Positions 5,837 through 30,384 of a stretch of 33,186 nt of DNA are shown one piece after another. The stretch comes from Clostridium sp. Marseille-P2415. GTDB lineage: Bacteria; Bacillota; Clostridia; Lachnospirales; Lachnospiraceae. The stretch's first letter is position 1. The number at the start of each line of letters is the position of its first letter. A program made the position numbers and the translations under genes. The DNA is taken from positions 1,561,832-1,595,017 of the forward strand of contig NZ_LT732526.1 of NCBI RefSeq assembly GCF_900155545.1. The letters are read 5' to 3'. Under the pieces are notes generated by a model. It saw nothing but the letters and a program-made list of their open reading frames with translations, searched no databases and was not told the origin of the DNA.

Positions 5837-7465
5837 TTATGCGCTTTCTTTAAGGTTAAACAGATGTGTTCCTGTACATTCTCTTTGGATCTTATGGTGC
5901 AGCTTATTCACGTTGTGAGCCATTGCAAGAAGAACGCTTTCCGCAAGTACATTGTTTTTCCCTCTGCATAGATAGCGATGGAAATTCATATCTGTTTTCA
6001 CATCAGCAAATGAACCCTCAGCCTGGATGCTTCTGTTCATTCGAAGCTGACAGCCTTCATCAGAGAGAATACGTTCCAGATCTTCTGCTCGTTTTTGTTG
6101 GAACACCTTTGATACTTCAAGCCGTTTTACTCGTTCTTCAAAAGGTATCTTACTGTTGTTTCCTTTGATACATTCCCTTTTGTACGGACAATCATAGCAG
6201 TCCTCACAGGTATAGATGTTTTTTCTGATTACATAACCCGTTTTGCTTTTCCCTTGTTTCGTACCTGTTAAAACAAGTTTTTTCCCGGCTTTGCAGGTAT
6301 AGCAGTCGTTTTCTGTGTTATATTCCATGTTTTCTCTGCGGCTTATATCTGTTTTATATTTTCGCGTCTTGGAAATCTCATAGTTTGCAGGCTTGATGAA
6401 TGAAACCTGTTCATTTTCTTCAATATATAGGTAATTCTCCTCGCTTTCATATCCAGAGTCCGCTACGATGTTTTTATATTTGAAATTTAAATGTTCTTCC
6501 ATATCTTTCAGAAATGGGATCAGTGTTGTGGTATCTGTTGGCTGTGGCCCGATCGTAAGCCATGTGATGTATTCCGAATCCACACCATGCTGAAGGTTAT
6601 AGCCTGGCTTCAGCTGTCCATTCAGCATCGCATCTTCTTTCATTCGCATAAAGGTTGCATCTGGATCCGTTTTTGAATAACTATTACGACTACCGCATTG
6701 GTAGATTTTCTTTGTGTATTCTTTCAGCTTATCCAGATATTCTTCTAGTCGCTCAATTGAGCGCTGCAACTGTGTTTTACGTTTTCCGATTCCATGGACG
6801 AATTCAATTCCTTCTTCGGCTTTGATCTTATAAAGTTTTTTGCGGAGTTTCTTTACATGACGCAGTTGAACTTGATTATGGTACACAACTTTAATACCGT
6901 ATTCTTCTTCACATTCTTCTACAAAAGCTGCAAGTTTTTCTAACAGTTTTGCGAGATTTTTAGTCACTGATTTTTTCCAGACAAACGTGTACTTATTCGC
7001 ACAGGCTTCAATCTTGGTACCGTCAATAAAGATATCCTTTCCGGAGATTTCACCAAGTTCAAACAGCAGGACAGACATTTGAGCTAACATTTTCTTTGAA
7101 CAGGAAGAAAAATGGAGTGAACGGAATCTGGCAATGGTGGCATGATCCGGAGCTTTGGAATCCTCTAATAAGAACATGAAATTAATGTCACGATGACAGG
7201 CTCTTTCAATATCTCTTGCAGAATAGATGCGGTTCATGTAAGCATACAGCATAATCTTCAGCATCTGTCTTGGCGTTGCAGTATTTTTCCGAATTCGGGA
7301 ATAAGTCGAATATAACTCTGAAATATCCATCTCCTCTACAACCTGACTTAGCAAACGCACAGAATCATTATCTGGGATTATACAATCGATATTTAATGGT
7401 AGTTTTAATTGATAAAAATCTTGAACCATAGTATAATCTTTTTGTAGAATTTTATTTAGTAGCAT
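5837..7465 (-). CDS. IS1182-family transposase
   Basis: DDE transposase of 542 residues that catalyses movement of the surrounding element. The N-terminal DNA-binding region (DUF772-like) includes ATPRQMLKIMLYAYMNRIYS and ARDIERACHRDINFMFLL. The catalytic core shows KDIFIDGTKIEA (first Asp), IVADSGYESEENY (second Asp) and SIQAEGSFADVKTDMNF (Glu). Between the second and third acidic residues is a cysteine cluster (CYTCKAGKK and CEDCYDCPYKREC), probably zinc-binding, as in many IS1182 members. The frame is intact with no internal stop. The start is uncertain: ATG at 7465, or the ATG 12 codons on (MVQDFYQ), neither with a strong ribosome binding site, which suits a low-expression transposase. 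Confidence 0.92.
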   Translation of the reverse strand: MLLNKILQKDYTMVQDFYQLKLPLNIDCIIPDNDSVRLLSQVVEEMDISELYSTYSRIRKNTATPRQMLKIMLYAYMNRIYSARDIERACHRDINFMFLLEDSKAPDHATIARFRSLHFSSCSKKMLAQMSVLLFELGEISGKDIFIDGTKIEACANKYTFVWKKSVTKNLAKLLEKLAAFVEECEEEYGIKVVYHNQVQLRHVKKLRKKLYKIKAEEGIEFVHGIGKRKTQLQRSIERLEEYLDKLKEYTKKIYQCGSRNSYSKTDPDATFMRMKEDAMLNGQLKPGYNLQHGVDSEYITWLTIGPQPTDTTTLIPFLKDMEEHLNFKYKNIVADSGYESEENYLYIEENEQVSFIKPANYEISKTRKYKTDISRRENMEYNTENDCYTCKAGKKLVLTGTKQGKSKTGYVIRKNIYTCEDCYDCPYKRECIKGNNSKIPFEERVKRLEVSKVFQQKRAEDLERILSDEGCQLRMNRSIQAEGSFADVKTDMNFHRYLCRGKNNVLAESVLLAMAHNVNKLHHKIQRECTGTHLFNLKESA

Positions 7466-16866: not shown

Positions 16867-17958
16867 CTATAAATCGTTTGAGAATTGTTCTATTTTTTCA
16901 TTGTCTTCATCCGGCGTAAGCTGACAAATGTCGAATTTGGCCTGACGATTAGTATTATCCGCAGAAAAGAACAACTGTCTCCCATAGGCGCAATAACTGT
17001 CTTCCGCCATATAATCTCCGTCATGATAATACCCCGCCCGTGCACGGCAGCCTCCGCACACGTTCCTGTAACCGCAGACACCACATGCCCCTTTATAATG
17101 CTTTGTGCGCAGATTCTCAAACAGTGAGCTGTTCTTCCAGATTTCATCAAACGGTTTTTCGCGGATATCTCCTGCTTCCTCAACCATATAAGCGCAGGGA
17201 CGAACGATTCCTTCCGGGTTCACCACACAATAGGACAGTCCGGCAAGACAGCCTTTGGTAAAACGGGTTTTTACATCCATTTGTTTTGCCACTCTTGTAA
17301 ATTGAGGGGCACAGGTTGGTTTTATATCAATGGGAACCTCTTTTTGTTTCGACATAATGGTTTGCAGCAGATTTTCATATTCCATAACTTCAAGAGAGGT
17401 TTCTTCCAGAAACTTCCCCCTGCCAACCGGGATCAGAAAAAATAAATAATTTGCTATTGCCCCCATTTTTACGCCAAAATCAATGATATCGCAGACTTCT
17501 TTTTGATTCCAGTCCATGATGGTGGTATGGATCTGAAAAGGTAAGCCGGCTTTTCTGCAATTTTCAATTCCCTCTAGGGTTAAGCGGAATGCCTCCTTGT
17601 TTCCCCTGAACAGGTTATGCTTCTGTTCATTTAAGCTGTCAAGGCTGATCCCCATGGTGACAGCGCCGCTGTCCTTTAATTTTTCTGCCGTCTCTTTTGT
17701 GATCAGCGTACCGTTGGTGCCAAAAACCGGCCGGAGGCCTGCACGTGCTGCGTAGGACACCAGAGTGTAGATATCCGGACGCATCAGCGGTTCCCCTCCG
17801 CTGAAAATCATGATTTTAAAACCTGCCCTGGCAATTTCATCAATCATTTTTTTTGCTTCATCCGTGGTTAATTCATTTGCTTTTTTATTGCCGGCATCCT
17901 GATAACAGTGTTTGCATTTTAGATTACACCGGTTTGTTGTCAGCCATGAAACAATCAT
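16867..17958 (-). CDS. Radical SAM/SPASM-type protein (AhbD/NirJ2-like)
   Basis: Cytoplasmic radical SAM enzyme of 363 residues. The start is ATG 17958 (AGGGGA six bases upstream; MIVSWLTTNRCN matches the family start); an ATG 15 bases earlier lacks such a site. The SAM cluster CxxxCxxC is Cys11, Cys15 and Cys18 in CNLKCKHC, followed by the FSGGEPLMRPD motif and GTNGTLI. The C-terminal SPASM-like region has many cysteines: KGCLAGLSYCVVNPEG, RPCAYM, then GACGVCGYRNVCGGC and DSYC, so additional Fe-S clusters are likely. Best family resemblance is to the AhbC/AhbD/NirJ group of haem-pathway decarboxylases, but no haem genes are nearby and peptide-modifying relatives are possible. It is divergent from the DUF1858/GTPase/ATPase operon across 314 bp with a large palindrome, which suggests a shared role. 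Confidence 0.85.
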   Translation of the reverse strand: MIVSWLTTNRCNLKCKHCYQDAGNKKANELTTDEAKKMIDEIARAGFKIMIFSGGEPLMRPDIYTLVSYAARAGLRPVFGTNGTLITKETAEKLKDSGAVTMGISLDSLNEQKHNLFRGNKEAFRLTLEGIENCRKAGLPFQIHTTIMDWNQKEVCDIIDFGVKMGAIANYLFFLIPVGRGKFLEETSLEVMEYENLLQTIMSKQKEVPIDIKPTCAPQFTRVAKQMDVKTRFTKGCLAGLSYCVVNPEGIVRPCAYMVEEAGDIREKPFDEIWKNSSLFENLRTKHYKGACGVCGYRNVCGGCRARAGYYHDGDYMAEDSYCAYGRQLFFSADNTNRQAKFDICQLTPDEDNEKIEQFSNDL

Positions 17959-18272
17959 ATGTCTTCCCCTCATATCATATTTTTAATGGTTTTATTCTTT
18001 ACATTGGGACATATATCCGTAATATATATGTCAAACGTTTGTCTGTTAGAATCAATCTCTTTTTGATGATTATGCCGTCATAAGCTGATTCATGCGGCCG
18101 GAAATCTGATGCAGTATAGGAGCCGCTGCATGGATATATAATAAATTATATCAACAGCATCCCATTATACGTTGTTTCTACAACAAACAAAACAGGAGCA
18201 ATATGTTATGATGTATTTATCATTAAAAAAAACATCATATAAACTTTTTATCATTTTCAGAAAGGAAGAAAA
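17959..18272. promoter_or_regulatory. Divergent intergenic region between radical SAM gene and SBP-like operon
   Basis: No gene seen. It contains a perfect 9-bp-arm palindrome (18008-18032), a TTGACA on the minus strand at 18034-18029 next to it (possible -35 of the radical SAM gene), a 6-bp inverted repeat ATGCAG/CTGCAT (about 18110-18131), and GTTGT-TTCT-ACAAC (18171-18184). TATGAT near 18208 is the best candidate -10 for the plus-strand operon. The ribosome binding site of that operon is AAAGGAAG at about 18261-18268. Confidence 0.45.
18008..18032. promoter_or_regulatory. 25-bp palindrome, candidate shared operator
   Basis: GACATATAT (18008-18016), CCGTAAT, ATATATGTC (18024-18032): perfect 9-bp arms with a 7-bp centre, about 50 bp upstream of the radical SAM start. 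Shape and place fit a dimeric regulator; no regulator gene adjoins. Confidence 0.5.
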
Positions 18273-19526
18273 ATGTCACATTACTTAAAAGCTACCGATA
18301 CCATTTATGATATAACAGAAAAATATCCTGAGACAATTGAACTGTTTGTTACAAACGGCTTTGAGAAGCTGAGCAACCCGGTCATGCGCCGCTCCCTGGG
18401 GAAAACCATTACTCTGGAAACGGCTTTATCCATGCGTAAGATAAATCAGGAGCTCTTCATAAAGAAGCTTGAGGAGGCCATTGAACAAAGCCTTCCAAAT
18501 CCTTCTGCCGGTCTTTCTCCCATGAAAAAGGAAGACGGAGGCGACATTCGCATAGAAGGGGTTCTGCCCTGTCCCATCCGCCTTCCCCTGATGGAAAAAT
18601 TTGAAGCCTGGATGGAATCTCAAAAAGATACGCTTGATTATAAGGTAGATTATAATTTGAAATCCGCCAATCTTGGGCTTGATGATGTCAAGGACCGCGT
18701 CATTGCCGCTGACGGCAATGCGGATGCCCTGTCCGATCTCTATTTATCTGCGGGCTTTGACCTGTTTTTTGACAAAAAACTCATGGGAGGCTATCGGGAG
18801 GCAGGCGAATTTGAAGATATTTCAGATGTGGAACAAATAAATCCTGATTTTGATAATGAAAGTATTTCATTAAAGGATCCCAAAAAGCAATACGCCATTA
18901 TCGGTGTTGTTCCCGCCATTTTCATGGTAAATACTGCGGCGTTAGGCGATCGTCCTTTTCCTGAAACCTGGGCAGATTTAATGAAGCCCGAATTCGAAAA
19001 CAGTATCAGCCTGCCCATGAGAGATTTGGACATGTTCAATGCATTTTTACTGCATATCCACCGGTATTATGGAGAAGACGGAGTTAAAAAAATGGGGAAA
19101 GCCCTTTTACGCAGCATGCATCCGGCCCAGATGGTAAAATCCCATATTTCAAAAGAAGGCAATCCGGCTCCCGCCGTATCCGTCACCCCTTACTTTTTTG
19201 CCAGTATGGCTGATAAAAAAGGCCCTATGCGTCCGGTCTGGCCCAGGGACGGTGCAATTATAAGCCCTATTTTTCTTCTGGCAAGGTCAAAAAACAGGGA
19301 AAAAATCAAACCCTTTGTGGATTTCCTCTATTCTAAGGAAATAGGAGAAATACTGTCCTCCAACGGAAAATTTCCCTCTACCAATCCATTGGTAGACAAT
19401 CACTTAAGCCCGGAACAGAAATTCATGTGGGTCGGGTGGGATTATATCCACAGCCACGATATGGGTGAGCTGATCGCAGCCACGGAACACCTGTTTTATC
19501 ATGCCTCAGAAAAGGAGTCCCTATGA
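18273..19526 (+). CDS. Cytoplasmic substrate-binding-protein-like protein with N-terminal DUF1858-like domain
   Basis: 417 residues. The first about 75 residues resemble DUF1858 (YLKATDTIYDITEKYPETIE, LFVTNGFEKL, then a terminal helix NQELFIKKLEEAIEQ), but the usual CxxC is missing. The rest looks like a type-2 periplasmic binding protein of the Fe(III)/thiamine/spermidine class (IIGVVPAIFMVNTAALGDRP, ETWADLMKPEF, NSISLPMRDLDMFNAFLLHI, PFVDFLYSKEIGEIL near the end). Unlike such proteins it has no signal peptide or lipobox, so it should stay in the cytoplasm. One notable site is GVLPCPIRLPLMEKFEAW, with a lone Cys. Its stop overlaps the next gene by 4 bp (ATGA). A solute-binding fold used inside the cell suggests ligand or metal-complex delivery to an enzyme rather than import; this is inference. 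Confidence 0.75.
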   Translation: MSHYLKATDTIYDITEKYPETIELFVTNGFEKLSNPVMRRSLGKTITLETALSMRKINQELFIKKLEEAIEQSLPNPSAGLSPMKKEDGGDIRIEGVLPCPIRLPLMEKFEAWMESQKDTLDYKVDYNLKSANLGLDDVKDRVIAADGNADALSDLYLSAGFDLFFDKKLMGGYREAGEFEDISDVEQINPDFDNESISLKDPKKQYAIIGVVPAIFMVNTAALGDRPFPETWADLMKPEFENSISLPMRDLDMFNAFLLHIHRYYGEDGVKKMGKALLRSMHPAQMVKSHISKEGNPAPAVSVTPYFFASMADKKGPMRPVWPRDGAIISPIFLLARSKNREKIKPFVDFLYSKEIGEILSSNGKFPSTNPLVDNHLSPEQKFMWVGWDYIHSHDMGELIAATEHLFYHASEKESL

Positions 19527-20224
19527 ATCTGATTATTTTTTCAGGCCCCCCTTCCTCCGGAAAAACCTCCGTGATCTTAAAAACCATAGCTTCCTTTCAT
19601 AACAGAGCTTTAAAGGTCGGTGTGGTTAAATTTGACTGCCTGTATACGGATGATGACCTGGCCTATGAAAAAGCCGGCATACCGGTTAAAAAAGGGCTTT
19701 CCGGCGCCCTGTGTCCCGACCATTTCTTTGCCTCCAATATTGAAGAGGTGGTAAACTGGGGAAACCAGGAAAAGCTTGACCTGCTCATTACGGAATCTGC
19801 AGGCCTTTGCAACCGCTGCTCGCCTTATTTAAAAGGAATTAAGGGAGTCTGCGTGATCGACAACCTTTCAGGTATTAACACACCGAAAAAAATCGGACCC
19901 ATGTTAAAATCCGCAGACTTTGTGGTCATAACAAAGGGGGATATCGTCTCCCAGGCAGAGCGCGAGGTCTTTGCTTCCTGTATAAGCTCCGTAAATCCCC
20001 GGGCAGTTACCATGCATGTAAACGGCCTGACCGGGCAGGGAGCCTACGAACTGGGAAGCCTTCTGTATGACGAAAACCAGAATATCGGATCCGTTCAGGG
20101 CATGCAGCTCCGCTTCCCAATGCCTTCTGCTCTTTGCTCCTACTGTCTTGGAGAAACAAGAATCGGAGAAGCATTTCAGATGGGTAACATTAAAAAAATA
20201 GATTTGGGGGCGGATAAGACATGA
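19523..20224 (+). CDS. HypB/CobW-like P-loop GTPase with two CxxC pairs
   Basis: 233-residue soluble P-loop protein. Walker A is GPPSSGKTS (8-16). The loop LLITESAGLCNRCSP around residues 88-101 corresponds to the switch region that in HypB reads ENVGNLVCP, and here it carries Cys96 and Cys99. TKGD (137-140) stands where G4 (NKxD/TKxD) gives guanine specificity. A second pair, Cys205 and Cys208 (CSYC), is near the C-terminus, followed by GETRIGEAFQMG. HypB, UreG and CobW relatives load metals or cofactors in a GTP-dependent way, and the Cys pairs suit metal or Fe-S binding. It overlaps both neighbours by 4 bp, so it is made in step with them. The target enzyme is unknown. Confidence 0.78.
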   Translation: MNLIIFSGPPSSGKTSVILKTIASFHNRALKVGVVKFDCLYTDDDLAYEKAGIPVKKGLSGALCPDHFFASNIEEVVNWGNQEKLDLLITESAGLCNRCSPYLKGIKGVCVIDNLSGINTPKKIGPMLKSADFVVITKGDIVSQAEREVFASCISSVNPRAVTMHVNGLTGQGAYELGSLLYDENQNIGSVQGMQLRFPMPSALCSYCLGETRIGEAFQMGNIKKIDLGADKT

Positions 20225-21234
20225 TGGAATGGAGTTTAGACAAGCTGCTTGAGGAATATCCCTTTGCTGCTGCTTACTTTGAACAGAATAAGCTGGAGAT
20301 TACCGGACACGGAGATAAGACCTTTAAGGAGTATTTAGAGCTTTTTACCGAAGAAGAGCTGGAGGACCGGGCCATCGACAAGGAAAAGCTTCTGTCGGAT
20401 CTTCCCATCTATATAGAACAGATGCGCTCCTTTCTGGGACTGGAAACGGATCGTAAAGTTCTTTCCCTGACCATCCTGGCCGGGCATGATAAATCCGGCA
20501 ATCCGGAAGGCTTCTCAGAGCTTACTGCAGAAACCTCACAGATCATTTCAATTGTAGGGCCTACCGGCTCCGGCAAAAGCCGCCTTTTGGCAGATATTGA
20601 ATGGGCAGCCCAGAAGGATACTCCTACCGGACGCAGCATTCTGATCAACGGGAAAACCCCGGATAATAAATGGCGCTTTTCCTCCAATAACAGGCTGGTG
20701 GCACAGCTCTCCCAGAACATGAATTTTGTAATGGATCTTACCGTACAGGATTTTCTAAGGATGCATGCCGTCAGCCGTCTTGTGGAGGATCCCCAATCTG
20801 TCATAGAACAGATCATCCTGGCTGCAAATAAGCTTGCAGGGGAAAAATTTGACTTAAACACCCCTGTGACCAGCTTAAGCGGCGGTCAGTCCAGAGCATT
20901 GATGATCGCAGATACCGCGATCTTAAGCTCCTCTCCGATTGTGCTCATCGATGAAATCGAAAACGCGGGAATTGACCGTAAAAAGGCCCTTGAGCTCCTG
21001 GTCTCTTCCGATAAAATCGTCTTAATGGCTACCCATGATCCCCTTCTGGCTCTCATGGCCCATAAACGGATCGTCATAAAAAACGGCGGTATCAGCAAAG
21101 TGATCGTCACAAGTGAAGAGGAAAAGCTGCTGCTGGAGGAACTGGAAAAGATGGATTCCCTGATACAGACCGCGCGGCAGGAACTGCGCAAAGGAAGCAC
21201 GCTGTCTGCCAGAACCTTAATGCCGGAAAAATAA
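20221..21234 (+). CDS. Soluble ABC-type ATPase with N-terminal DUF1858/ScdA-like helical domain
   Basis: 337 residues. Residues 1-80 are a small helical domain (WSLDKLLEEYPFAAAYFEQN, then LEITGHGDKTFKEYLELF) reminiscent of DUF1858 or the ScdA/RIC N-terminal domain, without cysteines. An ABC nucleotide-binding domain follows: Walker A GPTGSGKS (113-120), Q-loop near LVAQLSQNM, signature LSGGQSR, Walker B IVLIDEIENA, H-loop MATHDPLL. A C-terminal helical tail (EEEKLLLEELEKMDSLIQTA) could dimerise. No membrane permease is encoded anywhere near, so this is probably a cytoplasmic mechano-ATPase like SufC or the methyl-CoM reductase activator A2, not a transporter. It ends the operon; a strong terminator follows. 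Confidence 0.78.
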   Translation: MMEWSLDKLLEEYPFAAAYFEQNKLEITGHGDKTFKEYLELFTEEELEDRAIDKEKLLSDLPIYIEQMRSFLGLETDRKVLSLTILAGHDKSGNPEGFSELTAETSQIISIVGPTGSGKSRLLADIEWAAQKDTPTGRSILINGKTPDNKWRFSSNNRLVAQLSQNMNFVMDLTVQDFLRMHAVSRLVEDPQSVIEQIILAANKLAGEKFDLNTPVTSLSGGQSRALMIADTAILSSSPIVLIDEIENAGIDRKKALELLVSSDKIVLMATHDPLLALMAHKRIVIKNGGISKVIVTSEEEKLLLEELEKMDSLIQTARQELRKGSTLSARTLMPEK

Positions 21235-21277: not shown

Positions 21278-21307
21278 AAAAAAGGACTTTGCGAAAGGTC
21301 CTTTTTT
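21278..21307 (+). terminator. Terminator after the SBP-like/GTPase/ATPase operon
   Basis: AAAAAAGGACTTT, GCG loop, AAAGGTCCTTTTTT: a stem with one bulged base and a long U-tract, 44 bp after the stop. It separates this operon from suf. Confidence 0.85.
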
Positions 21308-26472: not shown

Positions 26473-27285
26473 CTATATTGGAGAAGTTGCGACATGATAT
26501 CTTCCCTTAGGTACGATAAAAGGAGACCCGGAAACAGGATCCTCTGTTACCACACAGTCCAGTCCAAAAACCTGCTTGATCAGTTGTTCTGAAATAACTT
26601 CAGAAGGCTCTCCCTGAGCAATGAGGTTTCCTTTCCATACGGCAAAAATATAATCTGCATAGCGTGCGGATAAATTTATGTCATGAAGTACCATAACAAT
26701 CGTTGTCCCTCTTTTCCGGTTCAAATCGGTTAACAAATCCAGAATTTCGATCTGATAGGTAATATCCAAAAAGGTGGTCGGTTCATCCAGAAGCAAAATG
26801 TCTGTCTGCTGTGCCAGTGCCATGGCGATCCATACCCTCTGGCGCTGGCCGCCCGACAATTCATCCACACTCCGGTTTGCAAGGCCTGTGATCCCCATGG
26901 TTTCCAATGCCTCTTCCACTGCTTCATAATCCTTTTTCCCCATGCCTTTTAAAAAACTCTGGTAAGGATACCGTCCTCTGGATACCAGATCTGAAACCGT
27001 GATTCCTTCCGGCACTACCGGTGACTGAGGCAATAACCCCAGCACCCTGGCCAGCTGCTTCGGAGGAATGGTGCTGATCTGCTTTCCATCAAGATAAACC
27101 TGGCCGGAAGCCGGTTTTATCAATCTGGCCAGGGTTTTTAACAGAGTTGATTTTCCACAGGCATTGGCACCGATGATTACACTTATTTTATGATTCGGTA
27201 TCACCACATTCACATCATTCAGAATCATTTTTTTATCGTACCCGGCAATCAGATTGCCGGCCGATAATTCAGGTGTTTGTTTCAT
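26473..27285 (-). CDS. Iron-siderophore/cobalamin ABC transporter ATP-binding protein (FecE/FepC-like)
   Basis: Cytoplasmic ATPase that energises uptake through the two FecCD-type permeases. 270 residues. Walker A is GANACGKST (39-47), Q-loop GLLPQSPVVPEG, signature LSGGQRQRVWIAMAL, Walker B ILLLDEPTTFLDI, H-loop VLHDINLS. GRYPYQSFLKG after the Q-loop is typical of the siderophore/B12 subfamily. The last gene of the four-gene operon, overlapping the permease stop by 4 bp. The substrate (ferric siderophore, haem or B12) cannot be read from the ATPase; the DtxR-like box in the promoter favours iron. Confidence 0.93.
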   Translation of the reverse strand: MKQTPELSAGNLIAGYDKKMILNDVNVVIPNHKISVIIGANACGKSTLLKTLARLIKPASGQVYLDGKQISTIPPKQLARVLGLLPQSPVVPEGITVSDLVSRGRYPYQSFLKGMGKKDYEAVEEALETMGITGLANRSVDELSGGQRQRVWIAMALAQQTDILLLDEPTTFLDITYQIEILDLLTDLNRKRGTTIVMVLHDINLSARYADYIFAVWKGNLIAQGEPSEVISEQLIKQVFGLDCVVTEDPVSGSPFIVPKGRYHVATSPI

Positions 27286-28316
27286 AATGCTCCTCCGCTT
27301 CTGTTCATGCGTATCAATAAGTAAATCAAATAGGGTGCGCCTAAAATTCCGGTAATAACCCCCACAGGAAAGCGGATATCAAAGGTATACTGCCCTATGA
27401 GATCTGCCAAAAGCACCAAAGCCGCCCCTGTCAGACCGGCAGGTATTGTATTGGATGAGCCCGCTCCTGCCAATCTGCCCGCTATGGGACCTGCCAGAAA
27501 GGAAACAAAAGCAATGGGTCCTGTTACAGCAGTTGCATATGCAATTAAGAAAACAGCACTTAAAACCAATACAAGCCTTGTCCGGTCTGTCCTTAATCCC
27601 AGCGTTACAGCAGAATGATCTCCCAGTTCAAGGATTTTTAACTGTCTGCCGAAGAAAATAAGGATCCAGCCAAACAGGAGCACAACGGAAAAAAGCCCGG
27701 GAATATCTTTCATCTGCATACCGTTTAAGCTGCCGCTGAGCCACCGGAACGCTGCCGGAACATCGTACTGACTGGCCCTTAAAAGCAAAAAGGATATTAC
27801 CGCATTCAGCATAGCCTGTATTCCGATCCCGATAAGGATCAGCCTTCCGCCGGAAAAGCTGCCTCCCCTGGATAAAATATAGATCAGGACAGCCACCCCG
27901 ATTCCCGATATAACCGCCGAAATGGAAACCACAGTTCCACTGACTTTCAATATAAGGAGGCAGAAAACCGCCGCAACGCTGGAACCGGAGGTGACTCCGA
28001 TAATATCCGGACTTGCCAGCGGATTTCTTAACATGGTCTGAAACGTATTTCCCGCCATACCAAACGCCATACCCGCCAGCAGCCCGGAGAGCATCCGGGG
28101 CAGCCTTATTGTTCCGATTGCAAAGGCGGCTCCTTTTATCTGCTCCCCTAAAAGGACCCTAAAGATCACTGCCGGAGAATACGTCGTGTTTCCCAAATAC
28201 AGCATAGCTCCGCAGAGAACCGCAGTAAAGACGGTCAGCAAAACAGATACTGCCAGGAACCGGACTTTTCTTTTATAAAAACCTGCTTTTACAATATTGA
28301 GATTATCATTTGTCAT
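27282..28316 (-). CDS. FecCD-family ABC permease, second subunit
   Basis: Inner membrane permease of about 344 residues and 9-10 membrane helices. The start is ATG 28316 (MTNDNLNIV), overlapping the upstream permease stop by 4 bp; the open frame extends further upstream, but that stretch is the other permease read in the wrong frame. Family marks are the RLPRMLSGLLAGMAFGMAGN motif, FQTMLRNPLASPDIIGVTSG, LSGSLNGM, and GPIAFVSFLAGPIAGRLAG near the coupling helix. Pairs with the permease at 28313-29308 as a heterodimer. Confidence 0.92.
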   Translation of the reverse strand: MTNDNLNIVKAGFYKRKVRFLAVSVLLTVFTAVLCGAMLYLGNTTYSPAVIFRVLLGEQIKGAAFAIGTIRLPRMLSGLLAGMAFGMAGNTFQTMLRNPLASPDIIGVTSGSSVAAVFCLLILKVSGTVVSISAVISGIGVAVLIYILSRGGSFSGGRLILIGIGIQAMLNAVISFLLLRASQYDVPAAFRWLSGSLNGMQMKDIPGLFSVVLLFGWILIFFGRQLKILELGDHSAVTLGLRTDRTRLVLVLSAVFLIAYATAVTGPIAFVSFLAGPIAGRLAGAGSSNTIPAGLTGAALVLLADLIGQYTFDIRFPVGVITGILGAPYLIYLLIRMNRSGGAL

Positions 28317-29308
28317 AATGAACGCACCTTCACTCTCATAGCAATCAAAATCAGAATCGGCGCTCCGAAAAATGCCGTAACAATTCCGGCTTCCAATTCC
28401 CCGGGATATCCAATGAGTCTGCCTATGATATCTGAAACGGTCAGAAGAATGGCCCCTCCTATTGCAGACATGGGGATCACATATCTCAAGTTTGGACCGC
28501 AAACGAGCCTCATGGTATGAGGAATCATCAGGCCCACAAATCCGATGGGACCTGCCAGAGCTGTTGTAGCACCGCATAGCAGTACTCCTGCCAAAGCCCC
28601 TGTAATTCTTACCAGCCCTGTATTTACACCAAGCCCTGTCGCCACATCATCGCCTAAGGAAAGGGCATTTAAAGCAGATGCTGATAAAATCCCAATGCTG
28701 AAACCGGCAGCCAGAAACGGAGAAACCGAAAGGATCCCTTCCCAGGTAGCTCCGCTGACACTGCCCGCCTGCCAGAACCGGAACGCATCCATAACGTCCG
28801 CTCTGGGCAGAATCACAGCGCTGACGAAAGAGGACAAAGCCGCACTGACCGCTGCACCTGCCAGCGCAAGTTTAATGGGAGTGGCACCTCCATATCCCAT
28901 GGAACCTATTCTGTAAACAAAAGCAGCCGTTACCGCCGCTCCCGCTAAAGCAAACCATATGTACTGGCTTGCGGTATTGATATGAAAAAATGCGATTCCG
29001 CTTACCACAAACAGGGAAGCTCCGGTATTCACTCCCAAAATGCCGGGATCTGCAATGGGGTTACGGGTGACTGCCTGCATCAGAGCTCCGGAAACCCCGA
29101 GGGAAGCTCCTGCGAGAATACTGAAAACCGTTCTCGGAATACGTTCACGGACTACCAGCGAATCAAAGGATCCGCCTGAGTTCAATAAGGCTCCTATCAC
29201 CTCTTGAAGCCCCACATTTCTTGAGCCAAGCGCAAGTGATGCAAAAACCGACAGAATAAGCCCAATTCCCCCGGCGCATAACAGTATGATTAATTTCTTT
29301 AGCTTCAT
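28313..29308 (-). CDS. FecCD-family ABC permease, first subunit
   Basis: Inner membrane permease of 331 residues. RIPRTVFSILAGASLGVSGA and LMQAVTRNPIADPGILGVNT are the family signature. The end has GPIGFVGLMIPHTMRLVCGP (EAA-like coupling loop), then GELEAGIVTAFFGAPILILI. It starts 4 bp inside the substrate-binding protein gene and ends 4 bp inside the next permease, so expression is tightly coupled. Confidence 0.93.
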   Translation of the reverse strand: MKLKKLIILLCAGGIGLILSVFASLALGSRNVGLQEVIGALLNSGGSFDSLVVRERIPRTVFSILAGASLGVSGALMQAVTRNPIADPGILGVNTGASLFVVSGIAFFHINTASQYIWFALAGAAVTAAFVYRIGSMGYGGATPIKLALAGAAVSAALSSFVSAVILPRADVMDAFRFWQAGSVSGATWEGILSVSPFLAAGFSIGILSASALNALSLGDDVATGLGVNTGLVRITGALAGVLLCGATTALAGPIGFVGLMIPHTMRLVCGPNLRYVIPMSAIGGAILLTVSDIIGRLIGYPGELEAGIVTAFFGAPILILIAMRVKVRSL

Positions 29309-30357
29309 TCTGCTTTATCCGCTGCCTCTCCGATCAGACTTAAGTATTCATCAATGGTTGCCGGTATGGAAAGGGCGCTCGGGTTCCCGGAAGCAGCCAG
29401 CGGAGTCCCCTCCGGTATCAATACCACAAACCCTCTCTTTACGGCGGGAATGGTTCCGATAAGCGGATCAGCCTGCAGTGCTTCCAGTAAGGATCCGTCG
29501 CCATAAGCAATGATAATATCGATATCGTCAAGAACATCTGCATTTTCAGCACTGATTTCTACAGAAAAACTTGCAGAGCTTTCTTCCAGTCTGTTTACGC
29601 TGTCAGGTACTTTCATTCCCAGATCCGTAAGATAGGCGGCCCTGGGATCTGTAAATAAGTAAATATAAAACTTGCCGAGGTCAGAGGGATTAAAATAGAA
29701 AAATGCAGCCTTTTTTCCTGCTATCTGAGGATAAGCAGCAGTTTTATCCGCTATCAGCTTTTCCAGGCCGGAAATCAGCTTCTCACCTTCTGCTTTCATG
29801 CCCATTCCTGCAGCATCCATGATAATCTGGTCACGCCAGGATGTCTGCCATGGAAGAGCCGGGTATGCGACAACAGGTGCTATTTCACTTAACATGTCAT
29901 ACTCTTCCTCTGTGATTCCGGAATATGATGCAAGAATCACATCAGGCTGCACATCACTGATGGCTTCGTAATCAAGGCCATCTGTATCATGAAAAAGAAC
30001 CGGGTTCTCTACACCAAGATTTTTAAAACCTTCTGCTGTCCATGGCAATAATCCGCTGCCATCTGTTACTCCGTAATTGGCTTCGGAAATTCCTGCCGGA
30101 GTAACTCCCAGTGCCAACGGCACATCCTGATTCCCCCAGGATATGGTTGCAATTCTTTCCGGTTTGCTTTCGATTACGGTTTCTCCGAAGGCATGCTTTA
30201 TCGTTATGGGATATTCCCTTTCGGCTTCATTGGAAGATGCCGGCGCTGCTGCCGTATCTTCCACAGCAGCTTCATGATTCCCGGATTTGCCCGCGCATGC
30301 GGTCAATGTCATAGCCAGCGCTGCAGCTAAAATACAACTCAGTTTTTTTAACTTCAT
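29305..30357 (-). CDS. Iron-siderophore ABC transporter substrate-binding lipoprotein
   Basis: Extracytoplasmic receptor of the importer, anchored as a lipoprotein: signal MKLKKLSCILAAALAMTLTA then Cys21 (lipobox LTAC). 350 residues from ATG 30357 (GAGGAG 7 bases upstream); a TTG two codons earlier is less likely. Type III (FecB/FhuD) fold: PITIKHAFGETVIESKPERI, ATISWGNQDVPLALGV, DYEAISDVQPDVILASYSG, APVVAYPALPWQTSWRDQI, and ADVLDDIDIIIAYGDGS at the C-terminus. The tryptophan-rich LPWQTSW resembles FepB-like siderophore receptors, not haem receptors. First gene of the operon, behind a DtxR-like box. Confidence 0.9.
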   Translation of the reverse strand: MKLKKLSCILAAALAMTLTACAGKSGNHEAAVEDTAAAPASSNEAEREYPITIKHAFGETVIESKPERIATISWGNQDVPLALGVTPAGISEANYGVTDGSGLLPWTAEGFKNLGVENPVLFHDTDGLDYEAISDVQPDVILASYSGITEEEYDMLSEIAPVVAYPALPWQTSWRDQIIMDAAGMGMKAEGEKLISGLEKLIADKTAAYPQIAGKKAAFFYFNPSDLGKFYIYLFTDPRAAYLTDLGMKVPDSVNRLEESSASFSVEISAENADVLDDIDIIIAYGDGSLLEALQADPLIGTIPAVKRGFVVLIPEGTPLAASGNPSALSIPATIDEYLSLIGEAADKAE

Positions 30358-30384
30358 AATCAAGCTCCTCTTTTATTCGTTGAT

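Follow-up and report, generated by a model that had tools for sequence, protein, structure and literature searches.

The three genes and their surroundings

The DNA analysed here, called the window in the following, is a stretch of 33,186 nucleotides of Clostridium sp. Marseille-P2415 (contig NZ_LT732526.1, positions 1,561,832 to 1,595,017), which contains three overlapping genes for a substrate-binding protein (SBP), a GTPase and an ABC ATPase. Very probably this trio is linked to the hybrid-cluster protein Hcp and to the regulator HcpR, as its gene neighbourhood, its co-occurrence with hcp and a palindrome in front of it suggest, and it may serve Hcp as a metal-handling module. The features of the locus are as follows.

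18273-19526, plus strand: SBP gene, 417 aa, with DUF1858 and SBP_bac_6
19523-20224, plus strand: GTPase gene, 233 aa, HypB/UreG-like, with C64-P-x-H67, C96xxC99 and C205xxC208
20221-21234, plus strand: ABC ATPase gene, 337 aa, soluble, with Walker A, LSGGQ, Walker B and H-loop
18171-18184, no strand assigned: HcpR-type palindrome GTTGTTTCTACAAC, 102 bp ahead of the SBP start, within the intergenic region from which the NirJ2 and SBP genes diverge
16867-17973, minus strand: gene of a NirJ2-family radical SAM/SPASM protein, the divergent neighbour of the trio
about 21280-21307, plus strand: terminator-like hairpin with a T-run, 3' of the ATPase gene, read by eye

An earlier note on this DNA had described three genes with ATGA overlaps and a radical SAM gene divergent from them, and all four open reading frames (ORFs) were found where it had placed them, with ATGA overlaps at both the SBP/GTPase and the GTPase/ATPase junction. 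The hairpin divides the trio from the suf genes downstream.

The proteins of the trio

By Pfam, the SBP consists of DUF1858 and SBP_bac_6, the GTPase of cobW and the ATPase of ABC_tran, and no signalling output domain was detected by Pfam in the three window proteins. DUF1858 is fused to the N-terminus of the SBP fold and was absent from the account of the earlier note. According to its structure model, the SBP is predicted to have a ferric-binding-protein-like fold, and its Cys100 is invariant. The N-terminus of the ATPase has a weak likeness to DUF1858 (hhalign probability 52%, P 1.4e-4), which is at most suggestive of a relationship between the two.

The structures nearest to the GTPase are those of HypB-nickel and UreG, and its score against the hypB model TIGR00073 is 51.9 bits, below the cut-off of 121.2. 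Residues C64 and H67 align with the Cys and His of the metal stretch of HypB, and the Cys and His residues of the HypB/UreG G domain are presumably metal ligands. The CxxC pairs 96/99 and 205/208, to which attention had been drawn before, are present in the window copy and hardly vary among 88 trio GTPases (Cys96 and Cys99 are kept in 88, Cys205 and Cys208 in 87), C64 and H67 being present together with C96 and C99 in 88 of 88. Identity to the window copy is 81-88% in 13 other alignment rows, picked from the best 120 matches.

Conservation of the trio

A contig scan of GTDB genomes gave 252 confirmed SBP relatives, and the best 80 loci, which lean towards close kin, were used. The window, 79 of these 80 loci and nine loci from 398 genomes drawn from the window's phylum form a set of 89 loci with a full-length SBP each; the set holds repeats (Pectinatus twice, some species names more than once), and its genes are longest-ORF calls, some with wrong starts. 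The order SBP-GTPase-ATPase is found in 85 of the 89 loci. Of the remaining four, two stop at a contig end, one has its ATPase frame split and one shows no ORF for the GTPase. A 4-base overlap is the commonest first junction (36 of 85 loci). In 82 of the 89 loci the gene run of the trio encodes no protein with at least four predicted membrane stretches, in agreement with the claim of an ABC ATPase without a permease, and in seven loci it encodes such a protein. Also the claim that the substrate-binding fold lacks an export signal is borne out by hydropathy: the mean for 19-residue stretches starting within the first 45 residues does not exceed 1.26 in 89 of 89 SBPs, and as there is thus no hydrophobic N-terminal stretch, no signal peptide is indicated by this simple measure, which was used in place of a dedicated predictor. 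Gene order and predicted topology support the view that the trio is a conserved, putatively cytosolic module without a permease. In a Bacteroidota sample, one of 296 genomes matched at E 1e-80, and this was the centre genome itself.

Association with hcp

The metalloenzyme gene that tracks with the trio is hcp. It was found in the fetched flanks of 33 of the 80 trio loci, where it is the most frequent family after the trio itself, and elsewhere in 42 of the 47 genomes without a flank hcp, the other five being metagenome-assembled genomes (MAGs) by title. The gene is hence present in 75 of 80 trio genomes versus 275 of 398 genomes of the phylum draw, and because it is so frequent overall, its presence alone is weak evidence and the linkage is the stronger argument. 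A full SBP occurs in 10 of the 398 drawn genomes, all ten have hcp, and in eight it lies within about 6 kb. The SBP profile at E 1e-50 matches 13 drawn genomes, from which the ten with the DUF1858 part were counted; G189, G303 and G307, with matches that lack all or most of DUF1858 and with no hcp nearby, were left out. GTPase matches at E < 1e-60 are present in 28 of the 398 genomes, 26 with hcp and two (G216 and G383) without.

The linkage takes several forms: hcp follows the trio (trio-hcp), follows it with a Crp gene in between (trio-Crp-hcp), or lies upstream of it together with a divergent Crp gene. A Crp-family regulator ORF is found in the flanks of 18 of the 80 loci. In a tree of 59 Hcp rows, for which 6 of 20 non-trio stretches gave no row, the trio-linked Hcps are scattered, with six label changes, at least five of them forced. 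Solved Hcp structures align across the hybrid-cluster regions.

Two other targets were considered and rejected. A nickel-type Hcp variant was not seen, as the checked positions are preserved in every one of the 59 rows. Carbon monoxide dehydrogenase (CODH) is represented in the window's own genome by a CODH-like gene (by sequence reading, with a weak hcp-model score), and BLAST with it among the locus ORFs gave only itself and Hcps.

The HcpR-type operator

The HcpR2 motif beside hcp is GTAACnnnnGTTAC, according to the available part of Rodionov et al. 2005 (PMC1274295). This motif or the variant GTTGYnnnnRCAAC lies upstream of 67 of 87 trios (41 and 26, respectively), compared to 2 of 773 control upstreams, which are those of other ORFs of the same loci. 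The variant was defined from the present data, so that its weight comes from the 773 controls and from whole genomes. By the upstream palindrome, the trio is a putative member of the HcpR regulon. Among 51 hcp upstreams, the first form is present in 27 and a third form in 2, and the other 22 have none. The 33 linked trio/hcp pairs comprise 23 with GTAAC before both genes, 5 with none before either and 5 with a box before one only; the Fisher and binomial figures computed with these pairs take no account of relatedness and do not serve as proof.

In the window, the box at 18171-18184 is the sole match of the three searched patterns. GTTGTNNNNACAAC occurs at nine places in the 5.25-Mb genome, compared to six for a backward control pattern, and these nine are one at the trio, three at two hcp loci, one before a ferredoxin-like gene and four in or near unrelated genes. 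The trio's box type is thus common to the hcp loci of the same genome. One of the hcp-locus sites sits between hcp2 and a Crp gene: the pair formed by the genome's second hcp and the Crp-family gene divergent from it occupies L150:4899-5573 and L150:6052-7644, and the box of the trio's type lies in between. For the Crp protein there, P. gingivalis HcpR 9day is the second match (1.5e-11), behind Lmo0753. The GTTGTnnnnACAAC box is a candidate site of the cognate Crp/HcpR, which we infer to act there. In whole genomes, GTAACnnnnGTTAC was found three times in Pectinatus, three times in Treponema parvum, five times in Labilibaculum and eight times in Tissierella pigra, two sites in each being those of the trio and of hcp, and twice in Clostridium prolinivorans, where one site is the trio's and hcp has no box.

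Which metalloenzyme follows the three genes was a check that had been proposed with the earlier note, and linkage, co-occurrence and the shared HcpR-type box all give Hcp as the answer. It can be held with good confidence that the trio is linked to Hcp and HcpR.

The small Cys-rich protein and other neighbours

In many species, a Cys-rich protein of about 80 residues is encoded just after the ATPase gene, in 31 of 80 loci as an ORF and in 38 of 80 by tblastn; it was not found in the window's genome. Its best Pfam model is HypA, below the gathering score (18.9 vs 28.9 bits; a second member scores 13.7), and when the family profile was run against the PDB, HypA was not among the matches. An identification as HypA was accordingly not confirmed.

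The radical SAM gene belongs to the NirJ2 family (TIGR04055, 550.4 bits vs a cut-off of 500; Pfam Radical_SAM and SPASM). It had been regarded as a component of the system, which is not supported: among the 80 relative loci, L002 alone has a close NirJ2 relative near the trio (82% identical), and the protein is rejected as a partner of the trio. In L056, L069 and L070 there are ORFs that are about 31% identical to NirJ2 over half its length. A NirJ1-family gene above cut-off is found at G000:C9:1683922-1685073 in the window's genome, and as NirJ1 is thus present also, NirJ2 may belong to a heme-type pathway. Porphyromonas HcpR binds heme, as stated in the available part of PMC12750200. A SUF link was rejected as well: 9 of the 80 loci have sufC in their flanks (Lacrimispora, Clostridium, Hungatella and a Paenibacillaceae MAG), and because the adjacency is confined to these titles it is read as the neighbourhood of one group.

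Elsewhere in the window, sequence reading gives a transposase-like ORF at 5837-7465 on the minus strand and, at 26473-30363, an ATPase, two permease-like ORFs and a lipoprotein-like binding protein that resemble a FecBCD-type importer.

Paralogous GTPase-ATPase pairs

Paralogous pairs were observed in other settings. In L119, L120, L124 and L125 such a pair lies beside a DUF364/DUF4213 'putative heavy-metal chelation' protein (called by Pfam on L119 alone and by clustering on the other three), and there is no hcp; by sequence reading, these loci also hold FecBCD-type permease and ATPase genes. In L127, L128 and L129 the pair is accompanied by a shorter SBP-like protein, by permeases that read as NitT/TauT-like and by a divergent Crp-family gene, and none of the three searched boxes was found in the upstreams. 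NitT/TauT transporters have been linked to clade B CODH (PMC6344411, available part), and BLAST with the CODH-like gene of the window's genome did not find CODH at these three loci. L117 encodes a DUF1858 and SBP_bac_6 protein with GTPase and ATPase, and its stretch has no hcp.

A possible role and what weighs against it

In anaerobes, the trio would act as an accessory module in the response to nitrosative stress, under an HcpR-type Crp/Fnr regulator that also controls hcp. The cytosolic, ferric-binding-like SBP would hold a metal or metal complex, most likely iron, the HypB/UreG-like GTPase would hand the metal on, gated by GTP, and the ABC ATPase without its permease would give an ATP-driven conformational step. 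In this way the hybrid Fe-S-O cluster of Hcp could be loaded, completed or repaired once HcpR raises Hcp synthesis, when Hcp would be needed in quantity while NO damages iron centres, and the small Cys-rich protein would be a fourth partner in many species. That the trio is such an HcpR-regulated metallochaperone or repair module is put forward tentatively, and the step that lowers the confidence is the putative delivery of metal. The expectation of metal-cofactor assembly or insertion, or of metalloenzyme activation, stands insofar as a metalloenzyme, Hcp, tracks with the trio and the GTPase is HypB/UreG-like, whereas assembly, insertion or repair itself would go a step beyond these findings. 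The interpretation of the earlier note is partly supported, and the trio would be a form of GTPase-linked metal handling tied to Hcp.

Several observations weigh against this role. All 59 Hcps compared, trio-linked or not, retain the seven hybrid-cluster positions as well as the first cubane Cys, so that nothing in Hcp marks a dependence on the trio. We take the ligand numbering to be that of the Desulfovibrio Hcp literature. The trio is missing from most Hcp genomes (full SBP in 10 and Hcp in 275 of 398), and Hcp therefore is not generally dependent on it. The window itself contains no hcp, and the two hcp genes of its genome are each more than 1 Mb away from the trio. Paralogs of the GTPase-ATPase pair adjoin FecBCD- or NitT-like transporters without hcp. 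The top Foldseek match of the SBP is the pyridoxal-phosphate-binding protein P5PA, and sugar-phosphate and polyamine binders are among the matches as well. Confidence in the GTPase model is low (pLDDT 64.5), the His of UreG aligns with D66 and not with H67, and the second HypB Cys aligns with N97, between C96 and C99. As to the operator, a recognised box is missing from 20 of 87 trios, and of the 30 hcp loci from trio genomes without a local hcp, 24 have a box and 6 do not. The backward control has 7 sites in Pectinatus, 5 in Treponema, 18 in Labilibaculum, 2 in T. pigra and 2 in C. prolinivorans, and since the site counts are not above this control in four of the five genomes, it is only the position of the sites that speaks. 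In at least four genomes (L003, L006, L020 and L055) the trio has a GTTGY box and hcp a GTAAC box; with these differing box types, a second Crp paralog may act there.

The alternative that survives best, still an unlikely one, is that the trio belongs to the HcpR response as a module for iron or Fe-S repair in general, which would bring iron from NO-damaged centres to many proteins, Hcp being merely a co-regulated neighbour. Operator and co-occurrence serve this explanation equally well, and so does the absence of the trio from most Hcp genomes. A flank hcp was not seen in 47 of 80 loci (in 16 of the 47 the flank is ended by a contig end), and in the window's genome the same box precedes two ferredoxin-like genes, one of which is followed by a DUF438/hemerythrin-like gene, all by sequence reading. 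DUF1858 proteins also occur elsewhere in nitrate or NO settings, one in an NnrR regulon table and another in Thermus nitrate respiration (PMC6710368, PMC6282519, available parts), and these are compatible with a nitrogen-oxide setting. What a shared regulon would not need is the recurrent linkage with hcp, in several arrangements and several parts of the Hcp tree.

Insertion of nickel or another non-iron metal into Hcp or an enzyme of the CODH superfamily, by analogy with HypAB in the case of hydrogenase and UreG in that of urease, is improbable. The likeness of the GTPase to HypB-nickel and UreG, HypA as best Pfam model of the small protein and the Pfam family of Hcp, which is Prismane/CO dehydrogenase, would fit it, but the Fe-S-O cluster positions are kept in all 59 Hcps examined, the HypA match is below threshold and absent from the PDB profile search, and the genome has a separate true HypB. 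A low probability is also given to a ligand-sensing or regulatory complex, in which the SBP would sense a ligand of nitrogen-oxide stress and its nucleotide-driven partners would relay the signal: proteins of the SBP fold family bind diverse ligands, pyridoxal phosphate and sugar phosphates among them, and Crp-family ORFs flank part of the loci, but the three proteins have no output domain by Pfam, and the conserved Cys and His of the GTPase suggest a metal. An ordinary ABC importer with a permease encoded elsewhere, to which the SBP and ABC ATPase families and database annotations like 'ABC-type Fe3+ transport system substrate-binding protein' would point, is very improbable in view of the missing hydrophobic N-terminus in all 89 SBPs, the 82 gene runs without a multi-membrane-stretch protein and the GTPase between SBP and ATPase in 85 loci.

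Returning to the proposed metal-handling role in the service of Hcp, it is conceivable, and rather doubtful, that the trio is the first dedicated machine for maturation or repair of the Hcp hybrid cluster, a two-nucleotide metal-insertion complex that would belong to a larger group of GTPase-ATPase modules, which work for different metal systems. If this is true, transport-type proteins serve as a cytosolic metal-handling machine, and the co-regulated, often linked module makes the question of Hcp maturation directly testable.

Comparison with known systems

The earlier note knew no named system of this composition, and in the literature searched (titles and abstract starts, mainly open-access) neither a description of the trio module nor a maturation factor for the hybrid cluster of Hcp was found. 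The trio is not named in the available parts of PMC12915319, PMC5701242, PMC13370916, PMC12750200 and PMC6344411. A 2026 survey of 1476 HCP genes found the neighbours too varied to conclude much, with class I often near FeS proteins and regulators (PMC13056359, available part). The HcpR regulon as described in the available part of PMC1274295, where the trio is not named, is alike in the operator GTAACnnnnGTTAC, the link with hcp and the Crp/Fnr regulators.

HypB and UreG resemble the trio GTPase in G domain, fold and the Cys and His aligned with the C-H stretch of HypB, but the trio GTPase scores below the hypB cut-off and adjoins an SBP and an ABC ATPase, often also hcp. In contrast to FbpA and FutA, the trio SBP has no export signal by hydropathy, mostly no adjoining permease, and a DUF1858 fusion. 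CooC, CooJ and CooT presumably belong to protein families different from those of the trio. They are alike as accessory proteins for an enzyme of the wider family of Hcp (PMC13056359, available part) and differ in their target, which for the trio would be Hcp.

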